Source: Bacteroidales bacterium (lineage in GTDB: Bacteria > Bacteroidota > Bacteroidia > Bacteroidales > UBA1556). Taken from it: DNA of 64,000 nt. Under the pieces are notes generated by a model. That model was not told the origin of the DNA and did no database searches. It worked only from the letters and a program-made list of their open reading frames with translations. This document shows, in pieces, positions 178 through 58,366 of the stretch. The DNA lies in the NCBI GenBank assembly GCA_023146135.1, contig JAGLCR010000007.1, positions 1 through 64,000 of the forward strand, read 5' to 3'. The position numbers and the translations under genes were made by a program. The stretch's first letter is position 1; every line of letters begins with the position of its first letter.

Positions 178-3126
178 ATGTTGCTAAATAATCACAGCTA
201 TTATAGTTTGCGTTACGGAACTTTTTCGGTAAATGATTTGGTTGCGCTTGCCCATGAAAAAGGCTGGCAGCGCATGGCCTTAACTGAGATAAATAATACT
301 ACCTCCATGGCCCAGTTTGTAAAGGCCTGTAATAAGCTAAGTATTACCCCTGCAGCAGGAATTGAGTTTCGCGAAAATCACAAACTATTATACATCGGCT
401 TGGCCCGTAACCGTGAGGGCTTTCACCAGTTAAATCAGTTTTTGAGCACGCACAATATTGCTAAAGATAAGTTTCCAAATCGTGCACCACAATTGTCTGA
501 TGTGTTTTTTATCTACCCTTTCTCAAAGCTCGAGTCTATACTTCCACTGCGTAATGACGAGTATGTGGGAATACGATACTTTGAACTTACGCAGCTTTTG
601 CATACCCCTAAAAACCTGCAGCCGAAACTCGTAGCCTTGCAGCCTGTAAGCCATAAAGGCGATACCGATTATGATTTACATAAGCACCTACGAGCCATTG
701 ACCACAATTGCCTATTGTCGCAATTGCAAAGCTCCGATTTGGCCCACGCAAGCGAGAAACTACCCACCGAATCACAATTACGAAAAGCCTTTGGTGGCAC
801 CGAATTTCTTGTGGACAATGCCCAAAACCTTTTGAATAAATGCAGCATTCAATTTGATTTTAAGTCGGTGAAGAATAAAAAGCATTTTACACAAAGCGTG
901 GAAGAAGACCAGCAAATGCTACGCCGCCTGGCCTATGAAGGAATGGCTATACGTTATGGCCGCTATAGCGCAGAGGCCAAGAGCCGTGTGAATAAGGAAT
1001 TGGCCATTATTAAGCAGCTAAACTTTTCGGCCTATTTTCTTATTACCTGGGATATTGTGCAATATGCCAAGTCAAAAGATTATTACCATGTGGGGCGAGG
1101 TAGCGGCGCCAACAGTGTGGTAGCCTACTGCCTTGGCATTGTTGATGTGGACCCCATTGAATTGGACTTATACTTCGAACGTTTTATCAATCCCAAGCGC
1201 AGTTCGCCTCCCGATTTCGACCTCGACTTTTCGTGGAAGGAGCGCAATGATGTACAGTCCTATATTTTTAACCGCTATGGCAAAAATCATGTGGCTCTAC
1301 TGGGTACCATTTCTACTTTTAAAGGAAAGTCTATTTACCGAGAACTCGCAAAAGTGTACGGATTACCAAAAGAAGAAACTGACGATTTAATTCGCTATCC
1401 AACAGCCCCTCGCAATCAAAATAATATTACACAAAAGATTCACAAATTTGCGGCCTTGATGACCGATTTTCCTAATATGCGCAGTATTCATGCTGGAGGC
1501 GTATTGGTAAGCGAAGAACCTCTAAGCTATCATACTGCTTTGGATATGCCACCAAAGGGTTTTCCTACCACACAATGGGATATGTATATTGCAGAGGATT
1601 TGGGTTTTGAAAAACTAGATATTCTGAGCCAACGGGGCATTGGGCATATCAAAGATACTGTGGCTTTGGTAAAAAAGAATCAAGGAAAGCAAATTGATTT
1701 TCACCAAGTGGAAGTATTTAAAAAGGACCCAAAAGTACGAGCATTGCTGCGCAGTGGCGAAACCATGGGCTGCTTTTATATTGAGAGTCCTGCCATGCGA
1801 GGCCTAATTAAGAAACTGCGATGCGACAATTATCTAAGCCTAGTAGCTGCCAGCTCCATCATTCGTCCAGGAGTAGCCAAGTCGGGTATGATGAAGGAAT
1901 ATATCCTACGATATAACAATCCAAAACAGGTAAAATATCTACATCCCATAATGGAGCAACAGCTCAAAGAAACCTATGGCGTAATGGTATACCAAGAGGA
2001 TGTATTAAAAATTTGTCATCATTTTGCAGGCTTAGATTTAGCTGATGCCGACGTGCTACGACGCGCCATGAGTGGTAAAACCCGGTCAAAGGATGAGCTT
2101 AATCTAATCGTGAAAAAATTCTTTACCAATTGCCGTTCCTATGGCTATTCGGAGGATGTGACCAAAGAAGTTTGGCGGCAGATTGAAAGCTTTGCAGGCT
2201 ACTCTTTTTCCAAGGCCCATTCGGCAAGCTATGCGGTGGAAAGCTATCAAAGTTTATACCTCAAAGCCTATTTTCCATTAGAATTTATGGTGGCGGTGAT
2301 AAATAACTTTGGAGGTTTTTACCATACTTGGGTATATTTTAATGAGGCAAAACGATTGGGTGCGAAACTGCATTTACCCTCCATTAATAAGAGTGAGCAA
2401 CTTACCACCATTTACGAAAAGGATGTTTATATGGGTTTTATTCATATCCAAAGTTTAGAAAATAATATGGCAAAGCTAATTGTCGGGGAACGCATAGAGG
2501 GAGGTGATTTTCAGAATCTAGCCGACTTCGTACATCGAGTAAACCCCGGTATTGAAAGTTTACTGTTATTAATACGAGTTAACGCATTCCGCTTTACGGG
2601 AAAAGAAAAAAATGCTTTGCTGTGGGAGGCGCATACACTTTTGAAAAAAATACCCAAAAGTAATGGCGTGAAAATACGGAGCCTTTTTCCGTTGATAAGT
2701 AAAGAATTTTCACTACCAAAGCTCGAATCAGACCAAATAATTGATGCCTATGATGAGATTGAGCTTTTAGGATTTCCGATAACATCATCCTATTTTGATT
2801 TATTGACCACCTCTTTTCGAGGAGAGATCAAGGCCAAAGACCTAAATAATTATGTGGGCAAATATGTAAGAATGTTGAGCCACTTGGTTACTATAAAATA
2901 TGTGAAAACTGTGCGTAAGGAATATATGCATTTTGCCACTTTCATGGATAACGAAGGAAACCTCTACGACAGCGTGCACTTTCCTAACTCTCTGAAACAT
3001 TACCCTTTTCAAGGAAATGGGCTCTACTTAATGTATGGGAAAGTGGTGGAAGAATTTGGTTATGCCATGCTTGAAGTTTATAAACTGGCCCGACTAAGTA
3101 TTAAACCCAATCCATTGGATAAATAA
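178..3126 (+). CDS. DNA polymerase III alpha-type subunit, short error-prone (DnaE2/ImuC-like)
   Basis: C-family DNA polymerase catalytic subunit of 982 aa, clearly shorter than the usual replicative DnaE (about 1,150-1,250 aa). An N-terminal PHP domain (about residues 1-70) is followed by the palm with the acidic motif PPDFDLDF (about residue 343), fingers, a helix-hairpin-helix region and a C-terminal OB-like segment (about 890-970). The usual TDHG motif of PHP domains is replaced by TEIN, so the PHP metal site is probably degenerate. Short DnaE forms in this phylum typically work in translesion synthesis with a Y-family polymerase; no partner is visible here because the gene lies at the window edge. 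The ATG start gives the family-typical N-terminus (YYSLRYGTFS). The polymerase call is firm; the mutasome role is inferred. Confidence 0.85.
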   Translation: MLLNNHSYYSLRYGTFSVNDLVALAHEKGWQRMALTEINNTTSMAQFVKACNKLSITPAAGIEFRENHKLLYIGLARNREGFHQLNQFLSTHNIAKDKFPNRAPQLSDVFFIYPFSKLESILPLRNDEYVGIRYFELTQLLHTPKNLQPKLVALQPVSHKGDTDYDLHKHLRAIDHNCLLSQLQSSDLAHASEKLPTESQLRKAFGGTEFLVDNAQNLLNKCSIQFDFKSVKNKKHFTQSVEEDQQMLRRLAYEGMAIRYGRYSAEAKSRVNKELAIIKQLNFSAYFLITWDIVQYAKSKDYYHVGRGSGANSVVAYCLGIVDVDPIELDLYFERFINPKRSSPPDFDLDFSWKERNDVQSYIFNRYGKNHVALLGTISTFKGKSIYRELAKVYGLPKEETDDLIRYPTAPRNQNNITQKIHKFAALMTDFPNMRSIHAGGVLVSEEPLSYHTALDMPPKGFPTTQWDMYIAEDLGFEKLDILSQRGIGHIKDTVALVKKNQGKQIDFHQVEVFKKDPKVRALLRSGETMGCFYIESPAMRGLIKKLRCDNYLSLVAASSIIRPGVAKSGMMKEYILRYNNPKQVKYLHPIMEQQLKETYGVMVYQEDVLKICHHFAGLDLADADVLRRAMSGKTRSKDELNLIVKKFFTNCRSYGYSEDVTKEVWRQIESFAGYSFSKAHSASYAVESYQSLYLKAYFPLEFMVAVINNFGGFYHTWVYFNEAKRLGAKLHLPSINKSEQLTTIYEKDVYMGFIHIQSLENNMAKLIVGERIEGGDFQNLADFVHRVNPGIESLLLLIRVNAFRFTGKEKNALLWEAHTLLKKIPKSNGVKIRSLFPLISKEFSLPKLESDQIIDAYDEIELLGFPITSSYFDLLTTSFRGEIKAKDLNNYVGKYVRMLSHLVTIKYVKTVRKEYMHFATFMDNEGNLYDSVHFPNSLKHYPFQGNGLYLMYGKVVEEFGYAMLEVYKLARLSIKPNPLDK

Positions 3127-3243
3127 TAGCAATCAAGCAATGAAATACCAAGTCATTTGAAACCTTTTTTAAATCTTATCGTAACTAAATAGCTGTGGAA
3201 GTAATTAACAATATACTGTTGATAAAGTTAACATCCACAAACA

Positions 3244-5920: not shown

Positions 5921-8443
5921 CTATTGCTTGATAAAGCTCTTACTATAACTCTTAGCATTTTCTTTTATCTCGAGATAATACCTTCCGGTTAATAATTTGG
6001 TGGTATTAATTCGAGTGGAGTTGGTGTTTTGATATTCCTTATGAAACACTAAACGTCCATTTACATCATATATATTAAGCTCAAATGAATTTTCAATATA
6101 AGGAAAACGCAGCTGAATGTAATCTTGAGCTGGATTTGGAAACAAATCAAAAGAGATATCCATATTTTCGTCTATCGCTGTACAATCAACAAATTCAACA
6201 ATCAAGCTATCGGTGTTCGAGCAAAGGTTATCATTGGTAATCTTTAATTCAATATTTTGAATAGCTCCTCCATTTGCATTAACAATAATACTTTGGCTTG
6301 TATCTCCCGTATTCCATTGATAGCTTGCATAGCCACTATCAGCAACAATTTGCAAACTAAGATAATTGCATAATATGGTATCACTACCCAAATCAAACTG
6401 CGGTGATTGATTTTCAAAGGCTACTACCGACGGAGATGTAATATCGGGGCAAACAGTTGAATAAGCAACATAAGAATAAACACCAGCTTGTGACACAGCC
6501 CACTGTTTACTAGTAATACTTGCATTGCCAATTCCATTTTCAAGCCACAAAAAGCTATCTACATAATTTGGGATAATCAGGCTTATACTATCATTGGCAC
6601 AAAAGAATGCAGTATCTGAACTATAGGGCGCACTTGGCTGACCACAAGTATAATAGTTAGCCTCCCAACCTTGGTCAGTTACACCGCCATCACTATGAAA
6701 ATGAACTAACATAGCTCCGCCTGATGAGCTTAATGATTGGGGTAACTGATTACCCGAAAAGCTTCCCAGTAAATTAGACGAAGTAGTGCTTCCATCATAC
6801 ACATCCACAAAATCATATGCAAGCTCTGTTTCGAAAAAAGTAAATTCCAAATTGATAGAATTATTTGCAGTATCAGTCATTAACCAATAACAACTCGTAT
6901 TGTCATTATAATTTTCCGTACCACTGCCATCACTAAAGGTTCCAGAAGGGTCTGTATATGCCTGTTGTCCATTACAATACTCTGAACGGTAATAGGCCGA
7001 CCAACCTGCAGCAGCAGTTTGATTGTTTGTTACAAATTGCAAATACATTTGCCCTCCTGATGAAGCAAGGCTCGCAGGAATTGTATTACCAGAATAGGCA
7101 GCAATTAATGGAGCAGAATTGTCCGAACCATCATAAATATAAAGTGAATCGGATGCTTGTACTTCAAATGTATAAAACTCCAAGGAAACCGAGACTGCAC
7201 CAATGGGATTAATTAACCAAGTGCAATTGGCGTTATTCTGATAATCCTGTCCATAACTACCATCTGATATATTTCCTGATTTTGATGTACTAGTATCCGT
7301 AATTCCTGAGCAAATCTGCGGAACACCAGGCTTCATTCCAAAAACAGCACCGCAATAATTACTAAAATTCATACCTCCAGGATTTAAAGCCGTAAGAAGG
7401 AAATATCCATTATAACTACCCGACCAGCCCCAGTTGAAGTGAAAATAATGATCGCTTTGATAACCATCACATACAAAGGCATGACCACCACTGCCACTGC
7501 CATCGTAATATAGTGGGCGCAAGGAGTCAAGTTCAGTACGAACCATCTGCTCCCAAATAGAATCGGTGAAGCTAGCTCGGTGAAGTAATTGAAGATTAAT
7601 ATCGTAATTGAAATAATGGTTAAAGGCATTGGCTGCATCTTGCGAATACGCTCCAGAGCCACCAGCAGAATACTGCATATCAACAGCTATTCCACAATGA
7701 CTAATTAAAGTTGACACAGCACTAACATTTTGACTTGTACTCTGCGACGTAAGTGTATCAGACATGAAACTCCAATTATAAGTAGTTGATCCAAAATTGG
7801 CAGTTAAATTACCATAAGTGGAAGCATACGAATGCGAGCCAGAACCAGTATTCGGAAACTGATGATAATTCAATACTTGAGCCATAGCAGTGGCTACACA
7901 GCCCGTAACCACATGATTGCAAGGCCCTGACATATCCGCTGGCGTTTCTTCATTATAATAACAACCTTGCGCCCAAATACTACTTAAAAGAGGCCCAACT
8001 ATTGGCGGTGCAGCCTTTGACTGAGCGGGCTTACTGTACTTACTCCACTGAGCAACAATGTGCTGCGTGGCTTGAATTTGGTTTTGTTGAATATATTCCA
8101 ATTGATGATTATACTGATCAATTGTAAGAGCAAAGTTTTCGGGTTGGTTTGTTATATTATATGAACCATGAAAACTATACGCTAATACTGGAATTGATGC
8201 ATCGTTTGCTGCTACTAACACAAAACCTTTTTGATTTTTGACATTAAAAGCATAGTAACTGTTTATTCCATTGAAACTAATCAATTGATAGGATTGAATT
8301 CCTGGGAAACTCCCTTCATTCATATGCAGTGAATAAAAATTCTCTGCTACTATTTGGGCTCGATTTTTATCTACTGGATTTGCCGAAAGGCTTAGTATAA
8401 TTCCAAAAGTTAAAATCGTAATAAGTATCGTATTCTTTATCAT
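5921..8443 (-). CDS. secreted C10 (streptopain-type) cysteine protease with two CUB domains and T9SS tail
   Basis: Multidomain exported protease, 840 aa from the ATG at 8443; the ORF track starts at an upstream TTG, which I reject because the ATG begins a good signal peptide (MIKNTILITILTFGI). A Spi-like prodomain (about 25-140) precedes the papain-fold domain, with the catalytic Cys in VVTGCVATAMAQ (about 182), the catalytic His in GGHAFVCDGY (about 321) and a FNWGWSG motif. Two CUB-like domains follow (about 378-485 and 490-600), each with paired cysteines and LYIYDG/VDVYDG motifs, then an Ig-like part. The last ~75 residues form a T9SS sorting domain (LFPNPAQDYIQL). It should cross the outer membrane by the type IX system and degrade extracellular protein. 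Confidence 0.9.
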   Translation of the reverse strand: MIKNTILITILTFGIILSLSANPVDKNRAQIVAENFYSLHMNEGSFPGIQSYQLISFNGINSYYAFNVKNQKGFVLVAANDASIPVLAYSFHGSYNITNQPENFALTIDQYNHQLEYIQQNQIQATQHIVAQWSKYSKPAQSKAAPPIVGPLLSSIWAQGCYYNEETPADMSGPCNHVVTGCVATAMAQVLNYHQFPNTGSGSHSYASTYGNLTANFGSTTYNWSFMSDTLTSQSTSQNVSAVSTLISHCGIAVDMQYSAGGSGAYSQDAANAFNHYFNYDINLQLLHRASFTDSIWEQMVRTELDSLRPLYYDGSGSGGHAFVCDGYQSDHYFHFNWGWSGSYNGYFLLTALNPGGMNFSNYCGAVFGMKPGVPQICSGITDTSTSKSGNISDGSYGQDYQNNANCTWLINPIGAVSVSLEFYTFEVQASDSLYIYDGSDNSAPLIAAYSGNTIPASLASSGGQMYLQFVTNNQTAAAGWSAYYRSEYCNGQQAYTDPSGTFSDGSGTENYNDNTSCYWLMTDTANNSINLEFTFFETELAYDFVDVYDGSTTSSNLLGSFSGNQLPQSLSSSGGAMLVHFHSDGGVTDQGWEANYYTCGQPSAPYSSDTAFFCANDSISLIIPNYVDSFLWLENGIGNASITSKQWAVSQAGVYSYVAYSTVCPDITSPSVVAFENQSPQFDLGSDTILCNYLSLQIVADSGYASYQWNTGDTSQSIIVNANGGAIQNIELKITNDNLCSNTDSLIVEFVDCTAIDENMDISFDLFPNPAQDYIQLRFPYIENSFELNIYDVNGRLVFHKEYQNTNSTRINTTKLLTGRYYLEIKENAKSYSKSFIKQ

Positions 8444-53503: not shown

Positions 53504-54952
53504 TTAACCAACACTACCCTCCAAACTAATAGAAAGTAATTTCTGCGCCTCCGCGGCAAATTCCATGGGCAACTGATTTAAAACCTCTTTTGCGTATCCA
53601 TTTACAATCAAGCCAATAGCTTTTTCATTGGATATTCCTCGTTGCTGACAGTAGAACAATTGTTCTTCCGATATTTTGGAAGTGGTTGCCTCATGCTCCA
53701 CAATGGACGATGGATTATTGGTTTCGATATAGGGAAATGTGTGAGCCCCACATCGGTCGCCCATTAATAAAGAATCGCATTGCGAAAAATTTCTTGAATT
53801 TTCAGCACTAGAATTTATCTTTACTAGACCCCGGTAACTATTATGACTTTTTCCAGCAGATATACCTTTAGATATTATGGTACTCTTGGTGTTTTTGCCA
53901 AGATGAATCATTTTGGAACCGGTATCAGCTTGTTGAAAATTATTGGTTACTGCCACAGAGTAAAACTCCGCCACCGAATGATTACCTTTCAATATACAAG
54001 AGGGATATTTCCATGTAATGGCCGAGCCTGTTTCCACTTGGGTCCACGATATTTTTGAGTTGTCGCCCTCGCATAAACCACGTTTGGTAACGAAATTAAA
54101 TATTCCGCCTTTTCCTTCTTTATTTCCTGGGTACCAGTTTTGTACCGTTGAGTACTTTACCTCGGCATCCTTATGAGTAATAATTTCTACAATGGCAGCA
54201 TGCAATTGGTTTTCATCACGTTGTGGCGCAGTACAACCCTCCAAATAGCTCACATACGAACCCTCGTCGGCTACAATAAGTGTACGCTCAAACTGACCTG
54301 TATTTGCAGCATTGATGCGAAAGTAGGTAGACAACTCGACCGGACAACGAACTCCTTTTGGAATATAACAAAATGAACCATCGCTAAACACAGCAGAGTT
54401 TAATGCGGTGAAGTAGTTGTCTCCAATGGGAACAACGGAGCCTAAATACTTCTTTATTAGTTCAGGATGCTCTTGTACTGCTTCGCTAAACGACATAAAA
54501 ATAATACCTTGTTTTGCAAGGGTATCTGAAAAAGTTGTTTTCACAGAAACACTATCTATTACCGCATCCACAGCTACACCAGAGAGTGCTTTTTGCTCTT
54601 CAAGTGATATTCCAAGTTTGTTGAAAGTGTCTAATAATTCAGGGTCAACCTCGTCCAAGCTTTCTAATTCCTTTTTCTTCTTTGGGGCAGCATAAAAAAT
54701 AATCTCATTAAAATCTATTTCAGGAATATTCAAATGTCCCCAATCGGGCATTTCCATGGTCAGCCATTTTTTATAGGCCTTTAGACGGTATTCGAGCAAA
54801 AATTCTGGTTCATTCTTCTTTTGTGAAATCAGTCTTACGATATCTTCATTCAAGCCTTTGGGGATGAATTCCATCTCAATATCAGTAGTAAAGCCATATT
54901 TATAGTCGCTGGAGGTAAGGTCTCCAATTATTTTATCTTCGTCTTTTGCCAT
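53504..54952 (-). CDS. sufB: Fe-S scaffold protein SufB
   Basis: A 482-aa Suf[28 protein letters not shown] is the usual opening. [22 protein letters not shown] (about 200), [22 protein letters not shown] (about 240-260) and [42 protein letters not shown] (about 405-445) are signatures. It is the scaffold on which the cluster forms, and the first gene of the sufBCDSE(T) operon. A TACCTTTG -7 box lies 38 nt before the ATG. Its stop abuts a REP-like unit. No sufA or sufU gene is seen in the operon. Confidence 0.96.
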
Positions 54953-54997: not shown

Positions 54998-55539
54998 CGA
55001 AAATGCCTTGTTAATTAGCTAGTGTTTTTATGATGATTATTGGTTTTTTATAGTAGGTAGAAGTCTAGATATGGAGGCTGTCAAACTACTGGCTGATTCA
55101 CGTCAAGGCCTCCCCACTTTTTGGCCATGGCCTACGCGCCGTAACACGGAAAAGCTAGTTCCATGAACAAGGATTTTCTAAAATGCTTCATAAATCAACA
55201 CTAATATTCACTTTGACCCAATATCATGAGAACACCACTTCAGCAGCCTAATCAACCCGTTCATGGGTTGAATATGCGCCTTAGAGAAATGACGTTAAAA
55301 AAATAAGGGGATAAATCGTTAAAAGCTCAAAACTGCATGACGAACGTTAGACGTGTCTTTTACACGGCTAAAAGGAGGAGTTTTTTGTGCTTAGATTTCT
55401 TTCCTTATTTTAAGTCATTTCTCGTCAGCGCAAGCTTTTTTGTTACTTTTTCAGCTGAAAAAGAAAAGAAGAAAAACCACTTAAATAATTATAACGAATT
55501 AAAATAATAATTAAAAAAAAGCTTTTCTTATTCAAATAT
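54998..55539. other. repeat-rich non-coding spacer
   Basis: About 540 bp without a convincing gene. It contains a GC-rich patch with GGCCATGGCC (55123-55132), a 31-codon ORF (55071-55166) that I reject as a gene, a TCAACCC/GGGTTGA hairpin (55252-55271), a long inverted repeat (55277-55431) and a palindrome related to the one at 22510 (55443-55463). Together they suggest remains of small mobile or palindromic elements. Confidence 0.6.
55277..55431. repeat. long inverted repeat, MITE-like or structured RNA candidate
   Basis: The arm GAGAAATGACGTTAAAAAAATAAGG (55284-55308) is the approximate reverse complement of 55403-55423 (CCTTATTTTAAGTCATTTCTC); GCGC lies 4 nt outside both arms. The ~94-bp loop contains further complementarity. 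No ORF is inside. Left and right of it are other short repeats. Confidence 0.65.
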
Positions 55540-56028
55540 TTAATCTTGTTCCACATCTGCTAACCCATCCAAAAATGGAATTAACTCATCTAATAAATCG
55601 TTGAAAATGGAATCAATTTCCTCAATTTTAAAATCCTTAAAATAGCCTAACTGTTGATCCTTATTATATCTTGTATATAACCATTTATTAGCACCTCTAA
55701 GTTTTACATATTTTCGATTCTCATTTTCAATCCAAGCAAAAGGGATGGGGCCTTTCCTATTATCATACCCCCAATCAATACCAATACCAACAGAAAATTT
55801 TCTATCATTAATTTCGCCCCCTATCCTAGATGTTAAATACAAGCCATTACCCCAATTCTTGAAGAATATTGAGTCAGCGCTAACAATTAATTTACCATAG
55901 TTTTCCCTATCAGAAATAGTTGAAATCAAGATTGATTTAATTTCATCTCGAAAATGCCAATAAACATCATGAGCCTCTTTGTATTTATAGATCCCTGTAT
56001 TTAAAAAATCATTTCTTTCTTTGTTCAT
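55540..56028 (-). CDS. hypothetical protein downstream of a nuclease-like gene
   Basis: A 162-aa protein I do not recognise. Mixed alpha/beta by appearance: an N-terminal helix (DVYWHFRDEIKSILISTISD), strands around LIVSADSIFFKNWGNGLYLTSRIG and FSVGIGIDWGYD, and an acidic C-terminal helix (EIDSIFNDLLDELIPFLDGLADVEQD). No signal peptide or membrane segment, so cytoplasmic. It overlaps the upstream gene by 4 nt (ATGA), which implies coupled translation. It might be a partner or immunity protein to that product; this is inference from arrangement only. Confidence 0.6.
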   Translation of the reverse strand: MNKERNDFLNTGIYKYKEAHDVYWHFRDEIKSILISTISDRENYGKLIVSADSIFFKNWGNGLYLTSRIGGEINDRKFSVGIGIDWGYDNRKGPIPFAWIENENRKYVKLRGANKWLYTRYNKDQQLGYFKDFKIEEIDSIFNDLLDELIPFLDGLADVEQD

Positions 56029-56828
56029 AATTCTAAGGACTTTTTTAGTATTTCTATCTTATCACTTATGTTTACAGGCATTCTACTCAAATTCCAATAA
56101 TTGTCAAAACCCAATAGTTTTTGTTCAATAATTCCAATGAAAGAATAAGCCCATACTTTCCAAACTATATTTTCATCTTTAAAAAGCGACTGCCGTAGAG
56201 TAATCGTGATTTGCTTCCATGTTAAATAGGAAACTTGTTGATTTGTATCATTCAATTCAATAATCCTTAACCAATCACTAACTTGATTTGGAAGAAGAAG
56301 AATATAATTGCTCCAATCATTATCACTCACATTGAAACATTTCTGAAAACTTTCACTAGCCTGGAATGTTTTCAATAAATTTGGATCACCAATTTTAATT
56401 TCAAAATGTGTTTGTTTAATTTTGTTCCATTCAATAATAATATCTGCTCGATACCCACTAGTAATATCACTTACCTCTCTTAGTACCTTAGCTGGTTTAG
56501 CATAATCATTTTGTTGAAAGCCTTCTATTTTGAATACGGATTCAGCAAAATATCCAGTTGATGATTTCTCAATTAAATATGCAAGCCAATCTGCCCAATC
56601 TTCCTCACGAGCCAATCGCAAAGGTCGAAAAGAACTCCAATCACTATTTGTTGGGTCTCCACCTAGATAAGATAACTTTTGATTCCACTGCTCCAGTAGT
56701 AATAGATATTCCTCATTCCTTTTATTAATAGCGGCCTTAAAAAGAGAATTAAGTTGACCAAAACTAGACCAGTCATTGGAGTCATTTTCAAACCATTCCC
56801 AATCACTATATATTTCCCAACTCATCAT
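56025..56828 (-). CDS. PD-(D/E)XK nuclease-like protein of unknown role
   Basis: A 267-aa cytoplasmic protein. The arrangement EEDWADWLAYLIE (about 75-87), GYRADIIIEW (about 125-134) and THFEIKIGD (about 140-148) gives E ... D-x(n)-ExK, the active-site pattern of PD-(D/E)XK nucleases, here EIK. The N-terminus is rich in Trp (WEIYSDWEWFENDSNDWSS). It lies 15 nt after the MerR gene stop and overlaps the following gene by 4 nt, so MerR, nuclease-like and unknown gene may form one unit. I do not recognise the family; nuclease activity is inferred from the motif. Confidence 0.55.
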   Translation of the reverse strand: MMSWEIYSDWEWFENDSNDWSSFGQLNSLFKAAINKRNEEYLLLLEQWNQKLSYLGGDPTNSDWSSFRPLRLAREEDWADWLAYLIEKSSTGYFAESVFKIEGFQQNDYAKPAKVLREVSDITSGYRADIIIEWNKIKQTHFEIKIGDPNLLKTFQASESFQKCFNVSDNDWSNYILLLPNQVSDWLRIIELNDTNQQVSYLTWKQITITLRQSLFKDENIVWKVWAYSFIGIIEQKLLGFDNYWNLSRMPVNISDKIEILKKSLEL

Positions 56829-56843
56829 AATTATAGTAATACT

Positions 56844-57188
56844 TTATGACTCTCTAATCTGCTCTTTCAAATCCACCAAAAAAGAACGCACGTTCTCCAG
56901 TGACTTTACGATCTCTATTTGGTTGATAGTATCTTCTGGATTATCTTTGAGTTTGTCTTTTGCCCCTTGCAATGTAAAACCACGCTCTTTTACCAAATGA
57001 TAGATAATAAAGAAGTTATCTACGTCTTTTTCAGTAAATAATCGATTTCCCTTTTTGTTTTTCTTGGGTTTGATAATATCAAATTCCTTTTCCCAAAACC
57101 GAATAAGTGAGGTATTAACTTCAAAAATATCTGCTACTTCACCAATGGTGTAATAGAGTTTTTTAATTACTGGTTTTTTGTATGGCAT
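56844..57188 (-). CDS. MerR-family transcriptional regulator
   Basis: A 114-aa one-domain regulator. YYTIGEVADIFEVNTSLIRFWEKEFDIIKPKKNKKGNRLFTEKDV is the winged helix-turn-helix of the MerR family, followed by a short dimer helix (EIVKSLENVRSFLVDLKEQI). There is no effector domain or metal-binding cysteine. Such short MerR proteins are widespread in this phylum as stand-alone regulators. It leads the apparent three-gene minus-strand unit with the nuclease-like gene, with a separate EEP-family gene upstream. Its target is unknown. Confidence 0.9.
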   Translation of the reverse strand: MPYKKPVIKKLYYTIGEVADIFEVNTSLIRFWEKEFDIIKPKKNKKGNRLFTEKDVDNFFIIYHLVKERGFTLQGAKDKLKDNPEDTINQIEIVKSLENVRSFLVDLKEQIRES

Positions 57189-57289: not shown

Positions 57290-58366
57290 CTATTTCAACA
57301 CTTCCACGTCCAAGTAAATTGGTAAATGGTCGCTAAACCCTCCATGATATTTTCTTCCAATATAGGTGCGAAAGGGAATATCAAGCCCTGATTCATTTTG
57401 TTCCAATAGAAAAGAGGCCTTGAAAACATAGGCTTTAGAATTCCGTAAACAGATTCTTCGTTTTGCTTGAAAAAGCTCTCGACTAACGACAAACTGGTCA
57501 ATATAATTCCATTCGGCACCGGTGGGTCCTTTATAAAAATGACTTCCTTTTCCTGCTTTCGACAAAGGCAACATTAAATTGAAAAGGGTGTTATTGGAAG
57601 AGGAGTCTGGCAATACTGCTTTAAGTCCAATTATTAAACTCTCTTCGTCAGGAGCATCATTCAAATCCCCCATTATTATAATTTTAGCATTGGAGTTAAT
57701 GCTTATTATTGAGTCTGTTAACTTGCGTATTTGCTGTGCTACATATACTCGTTTAGGAATGGTAACAAAGGCTCCCCCGTACTTCGATGGCCAGTGGGTA
57801 ACTACAAAATGAATGGTGTCGGCATCGAGCAAGACTCCTTTTACATATAAAATATCGCGTGTTCGAGAGGTGGTATCAAAAGGAAAACGAATGCTAATTG
57901 CTGAATCAAAAAGTAATATGAACTTTTCTCTTCGATATAAAAAAACTACATCAATTCCTCGACGGTCGGGTGATTCGTGGTGAACAGTCTGATAATTAGT
58001 AGATTTAAGCTGCGTATTATAACATAGGTTTATAAGGGTATGTTTATTTTCAATCTCTGCCAGTCCTACAATAGCAGGCATTTCCCATCCGCCCACTGCG
58101 GTAATCACTTGAGCAATTTTCTTTTGTTTATTCCAATATTTATTTTTATCCCATCGGTAATCCCCTTCGGGTAAAAACTGTTGATCATATTTTAAAGTAT
58201 CGTGCTTTGTATCAAACAGATTTTCCACATTATAAAACATAATCCGCGCAGCTTTTCGTCCACGAGGATTATCATCAAAGTCCGTTAATAACCGCGTATT
58301 AGCACTTTGAGCAAAGCTGATAAAACCTAAAACTAAAAATAATAAAGAAATAATTAGAGAGTTCAT
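57290..58366 (-). CDS. exported endonuclease/exonuclease/phosphatase (EEP) family protein
   Basis: A 358-aa protein with a signal peptide (about 1-19, ending ISFAQS). EEP fold motifs: MFYNVENLFDTKHD (Asn and Glu, about 43-52), GLAEIENKHTL (about 103), THWPSKYGG (about 192), IIMGDLNDAPDEESL (about 230) and the final SDHLPIYLDVEVL (Asp-His). The full set of metal ligands is present, so it should be active. The substrate (nucleic acid, inositol or sphingolipid phosphate) is not known; extracellular nucleases of this type scavenge DNA. It follows patatin by 15 nt and may be in that operon. Confidence 0.88.
   Translation of the reverse strand: MNSLIISLLFLVLGFISFAQSANTRLLTDFDDNPRGRKAARIMFYNVENLFDTKHDTLKYDQQFLPEGDYRWDKNKYWNKQKKIAQVITAVGGWEMPAIVGLAEIENKHTLINLCYNTQLKSTNYQTVHHESPDRRGIDVVFLYRREKFILLFDSAISIRFPFDTTSRTRDILYVKGVLLDADTIHFVVTHWPSKYGGAFVTIPKRVYVAQQIRKLTDSIISINSNAKIIIMGDLNDAPDEESLIIGLKAVLPDSSSNNTLFNLMLPLSKAGKGSHFYKGPTGAEWNYIDQFVVSRELFQAKRRICLRNSKAYVFKASFLLEQNESGLDIPFRTYIGRKYHGGFSDHLPIYLDVEVLK

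Follow-up and report, generated by a model that had tools for sequence, protein, structure and literature searches.

Two adjacent genes of the 64,000-nt stretch of Bacteroidales DNA analysed here (the window), termed A and B, belong together as a genuine module. Conserved homologues occur in identical order in bacteria and archaea, which places the pair far beyond chance open reading frames (ORFs). Gene A (minus strand, positions 56025-56828; 267 aa), identified from its ORF, its homologues, an AlphaFold model and Foldseek comparison, is predicted to encode a PD-(D/E)XK-type nuclease. Gene B (minus strand, 55540-56028; 162 aa), identified from its ORF, homologues and model, would encode the partner protein of A. 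The two overlap by 4 nt. Based on their sporadic distribution, their defence-rich flanks and their absence from virus collections, we consider with a probability of about 0.6 that they constitute a horizontally spread nuclease defence module, directed against viruses or plasmids and working without a methyltransferase. A narrower proposal is tentative, at somewhat short of an even chance: an undescribed bacterial and archaeal defence system in which the nuclease would be under the control of a small protein with a new fold, acting through repeated tryptophan motifs in the flexible N-terminal arm of the nuclease.

Predicted structures of proteins A and B

The original prediction had recognised in the middle protein of a three-gene row the E...D-x(n)-EIK pattern of PD-(D/E)XK nucleases. 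The pattern was real and took the form E...D-x13-E-I-K; its residues E118, D129, E143 and K145 were identical in 36 of 36 A sequences, as were D148, K153, W204, R212 and W223. The AlphaFold model of A (pLDDT 89.4, pTM 0.86) showed a helical N-terminal part, a helix at residues 75-88, strands at 114-121, 126-133 and 139-144, a helix at 153-164 and a strand at 172-178. We are confident that this modelled arrangement represents the alpha-beta-beta-beta-alpha-beta core of the PD-(D/E)XK superfamily, and the nuclease core sought by structure prediction was thus present. The candidate active site consists of E75/E76 in the helix, E118 in strand 1, D129 in strand 2 and E143-x-K145 in strand 3, with D129, E143 and K145 supplying the D...(D/E)-x-K signature in strands 2 and 3. 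The full conservation of the PD-(D/E)XK residues argues for cutting of nucleic acid by A.

When the model of A was compared with the PDB by Foldseek, the top three distinct matches were SfsA, EndoMS and a P. abyssi repair endonuclease (probability 0.98-0.99), followed lower down by the CRISPR nucleases Can2 and Card1 and by NgoMIV. The TM-scores of these fold matches were 0.2-0.3 and their E-values exceeded 0.01, which suggests that A belongs to the superfamily as a remote member. With EndoMS/NucS, SfsA, Can2/Card1 and NgoMIV-type enzymes it shares the predicted core, and its acidic residues and E-x-K lie in the strands where they are expected. It differs in that its sequence matched no solved structure significantly, in the low TM-scores and in an N-terminal region that nothing matched. 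Pfam PDDEXK_4 was matched weakly, by one A member only (E 0.016).

The N-terminal tail of A from the window contains two W-x-x-[FY]-x-x-[WL] motifs, and in nearly all A sequences a W-x-x-[FLI]-D-x-[WLF]-like motif occurs between one and five times at this end. There were 70 copies in total versus 7 expected from shuffles, an excess that is descriptive, as the pattern was picked after the sequences had been viewed. Residues 1-20 of the window protein, which hold the motifs, had a pLDDT of 50-61, and on this basis the N-terminus of A is likely a flexible arm. No match was found to the helical N-terminal region with its repeated W-x-x-F/L-D motifs.

The model of B (pLDDT 85.3, pTM 0.79) was composed of a 38-residue N-terminal helix, antiparallel strands, a long C-terminal helix and an acidic tail, the last already noted in the original prediction and ending in LDGLADVEQD. 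Neither the PDB nor BFVD (viral) yielded a credible fold match, and no solved structure matched B by sequence, the PDB profile matches being nanobody noise. The bacterial and archaeal B profiles aligned from end to end (hhalign probability 95.6, E 1.1e-8), which confirms at the sequence level that the two are homologous. With no detectable relative of known structure, B could reveal a new nuclease switch once its structure is solved.

Searches of Pfam, NCBIfam, PADLOC and PHROGs placed neither A nor B in a family, and PADLOC 2.0.0 returned none for either even at E 10. The middle protein had been described as belonging to no recognised family, in line with this outcome, and no housekeeping family was found for the homologues. 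Weak Pfam matches (W02B3_4_N for B, DUF1877, Imm30, DUF5962) were dismissed, as all had E > 0.005 and involved one member each. Text searches, which cannot exclude a published description of the pair, found none. While the superfamily of A is already known, the putative A/B system, the B family and the W-motif arm appeared in none of the four libraries or the papers reached.

Pairing and distribution of A and B

A single-sequence search of the GTDB contigs with A gave no matches, and a profile built from haloarchaeal plasmid matches and the window sequence was needed. The plasmid matches were obtained by tblastn with A, which detected four haloarchaeal megaplasmids with a small gene directly downstream of A each time; a bacterial A and B used as tblastn queries against plasmids gave none. 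The A profile recovered 20 GTDB loci in Bacteroidota, Planctomycetota, Spirochaetota, Myxococcota/delta, Acidobacteriota and Halobacteria. A was present in 1 of 396 sampled Bacteroidota, the window genome itself, and in 0 of 10 congeners. Haloarchaeal A sequences separated from bacterial ones with full support in the A tree, suggesting that the gene moved between the domains long ago or only seldom.

A B homologue lay directly after A at every locus with enough downstream sequence, the overlap being mostly 4-17 nt; A was interrupted in L009, where the contig end was reached, and the contig end fell inside B in L011. Among 294 haloarchaeal genomes searched separately for each gene, full-length A was found in 16 and full-length B in 15, with 15 of the 15 B genes directly behind A. 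The sixteenth A-bearing genome (G682, apparently that of locus L002) had a frameshifted B. Weak fragments of A in three haloarchaeal genomes and of B in three look like remnants. B without A was found neither in the plasmid collection (tblastn) nor in 19 A-bearing genomes, and the pair, whose co-occurrence had been proposed as a check, does not separate. The distances among A and among B correlated (Mantel 0.61, p 0.0005), as expected from shared descent, and B diverges faster than A (mean identity 0.20 versus 0.31). The translational overlap and strict pairing suggest that A and B form a complex or depend strictly on each other in function. Two genomes contained two divergent A/B pairs each (G414, loci L015 and L018; G420, loci L022 and L024), as if variants accumulate.

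The last protein had been proposed as a partner or immunity factor of the nuclease. The first half of this proposal held, B being an obligate neighbour of A, whereas a simple toxin/immunity relationship is made somewhat less likely by two loci with a frameshifted B and an intact A that retains all catalytic residues. B is frameshifted twice in L002 (7840-8408; complete genome) and once in L026 (4802-5373; metagenome-assembled genome, MAG). These loci bear directly on a toxin-antitoxin or effector-immunity reading, in which A is a toxic nuclease neutralised by B and the pair serves plasmid or island maintenance, since an intact A without B is hard to explain if A alone kills, unless the frameshifts are sequencing or assembly errors. 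Strict pairing, the acidic tail of B in the window and the compact layout of two small overlapping genes, horizontally spread and in several cases on haloarchaeal megaplasmids, resemble type II toxin-antitoxin and effector-immunity modules. In A/B, however, the nuclease gene comes first, whereas many toxin-antitoxin pairs place the antitoxin first. B also exceeds the typical antitoxin size, no antitoxin DNA-binding domain or motif was found in it, and it had no significant match to an immunity or antitoxin family (best Imm30, E 0.019, one member). We regard this reading as unlikely. The faster divergence of B and the two cases in which B was lost and A kept fit an activator or sensor better than an essential immunity protein. 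If the frameshifts are real, L002 and L026 would be useful for separating the sensor and immunity roles of B.

Genomic surroundings and a putative defence role

Several A/B loci lay near genes of known defence systems. Neighbours included DISARM DrmD (L014), HmaC of Hma (L016), a type I restriction-modification (RM) system (HsdMS, L013), McrBC-like pairs (L021 and L022), a type IIG-like methylase (L005), GmrSD (L003), a type I-B CRISPR system with a DUF499 gene (L004) and a PbeA-like gene (L024); some Pfam tallies were assigned to individual loci of this first set by reading of the sequences. Stretches of 13.6 kb around A in 13 haloarchaeal genomes were then compared with control stretches of the same size, taken from these genomes at a distance of 100-400 kb. 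The flanks (116 proteins) matched 250 PADLOC families versus 50 for the controls (134 proteins), counted per family and not per locus, with redundant models and with two pairs of flanks in which the members are closely related to each other. Flank matches included a type I methyltransferase (E 5e-105) and a PsyrT-type helicase (E 3e-189), and some were to generic or transposon families (helicases, TnpB). The defence-island association for which the original prediction had called was therefore observed, in that homologous loci were, by the per-family counts, enriched in defence genes relative to matched controls.

Known defence genes were recognised within a few kb of the pair in no more than roughly a third to half of the A/B loci, and the remaining loci had transposases, integrases or ordinary genes nearby, so that plasmid or mobile-element biology also fits. 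The pair could accordingly be a DNA-processing module of mobile elements or plasmids, namely a nuclease for repair, resolution or replication together with an accessory subunit, carried along as a passenger of mobile and defence DNA. The mismatch nuclease EndoMS/NucS is among the closest folds of A, SSB genes lie directly upstream of the pair in L010, and ParA, integrase and transposase genes were found near several haloarchaeal copies. Against such a module, no replication or partition partner was consistent. Apart from A and B, a single neighbouring gene recurred in over three bacterial loci; it encodes a small protein with the motif W-x-[FW]-AKTYA-x-TWPH-x-Y-V (WAKTY). It adjoins the pair in four bacterial loci (L007, 88-1017, plus strand; L009, 7596-7958, plus; L017, 8943-9947, plus; L019, 9268-9675, minus) and is possibly an accessory or another defence gene. 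In L007, it comes after a second PD-(D/E)XK-looking domain. Searches of 50,697 phage records and of IMG/VR viral contigs found no A. This result and the strong restriction-type neighbours across diverse phyla also speak against a DNA-processing module, which we consider improbable.

The preferred reading, a nuclease defence module, allows a mode of action to be proposed. A and B would be co-translated through overlaps of a few nt and would then form a complex. B, the faster-diverging protein, may sense an invader or a modified or damaged state of DNA and would license or direct A, which would cut DNA through the E118/D129/E143/K145 site, with the invader restricted or the cell killed as the outcome. 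The W-x-x-F/L-D motifs in the flexible N-terminus of A could plausibly form an arm to which B docks or through which A assembles with A. We infer each of these steps, from complex formation to DNA cleavage, defence, sensing by B and the role of the W motifs, from the comparisons above.

Like two-gene nuclease defence and methylation-dependent restriction systems (type IV, McrBC, GmrSD), the pair would combine a nuclease with no obligate methyltransferase, and it is sporadic and set among RM, DISARM, Hma and McrBC genes. Unlike type IV systems, McrBC and GmrSD, it has no NTPase or helicase, no known recognition domain and no PADLOC model. We file it as kin of nuclease-based defence modules and as a member of no named system. 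If the defence reading is true, an unnamed two-gene immune module common to bacteria and haloarchaea would escape a PADLOC, Pfam, NCBIfam or PHROGs scan. The pair is small enough for direct cloning and testing, and a test is made practical by a copy on plasmid pHLAC01 of the published haloarchaeon Halorubrum lacusprofundi ATCC 49239.

The MerR gene and the spacer

ORF analysis of the window returned the three minus-strand genes of the original prediction with exactly the same ends. The first of them, MerR (minus strand, 56844-57188; 114 aa; Pfam MerR_1 1.2e-19), had been counted as a member of the possible system, and A starts 15 nt past its stop. In a comparison of 11 genomes of the family, all from one genus and the window's own included, MerR was found in 10. 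It was never followed by A/B in the congeners; the next gene was ABC-permease-like in six relatives and a ComFC-like phosphoribosyltransferase in three others (named by eye). Three of those relatives retain the window's gene upstream of MerR, and the region between MerR and suf is rearranged in relatives. MerR is an ordinary core gene outside the A/B module, as the genus retains it with different genes downstream and it was not observed beside the pair elsewhere. A and B occupy a site beside this core gene where the genus is rearranged. A three-gene system in which MerR would be dedicated to regulating the nuclease pair is highly improbable and was rejected: the short MerR-A gap with no terminator-like site makes co-transcription likely in the window genome, but relatives without A/B also have MerR, the genes found by eye ahead of A in L007, L008 and L010, the nearest relatives, do not resemble MerR, and the consistent linkage to the pair expected of a MerR-regulated operon was not observed. 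Given the 15-nt spacing, read-through from the MerR promoter may drive transcription of A and B.

The locus is flanked by sufB (53504-54952) and by a gene of the endonuclease/exonuclease/phosphatase family (57290-58366) and sits among core genes, outside any defence island. Promoter and terminator scans at the locus gave nothing above chance, and no Rfam RNA was found near the module. A long inverted repeat had been reported in a repeat-rich spacer next to the three genes. It is present and weak, with 28-nt arms that are 75% complementary and 102 nt apart, and its inclusion in the system was not supported. This spacer, between B and sufB, is in part better described as a dispersed short repeat (55383-55513) of about 110-130 nt, with seven further partial copies at 77-87% identity on several contigs of the same genome. 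The repeat is a bystander, perhaps a recombination site. The GC content of A and B was 0.31-0.32 compared to 0.373 (sd 0.025) for the window, a mild sign, at the level of base composition, that the pair was imported. In one haloarchaeal genome (L117, positions 833-3236 and 5996-7668), an A/B pair lies near sufC/sufB as in the window, which is probably a coincidence.
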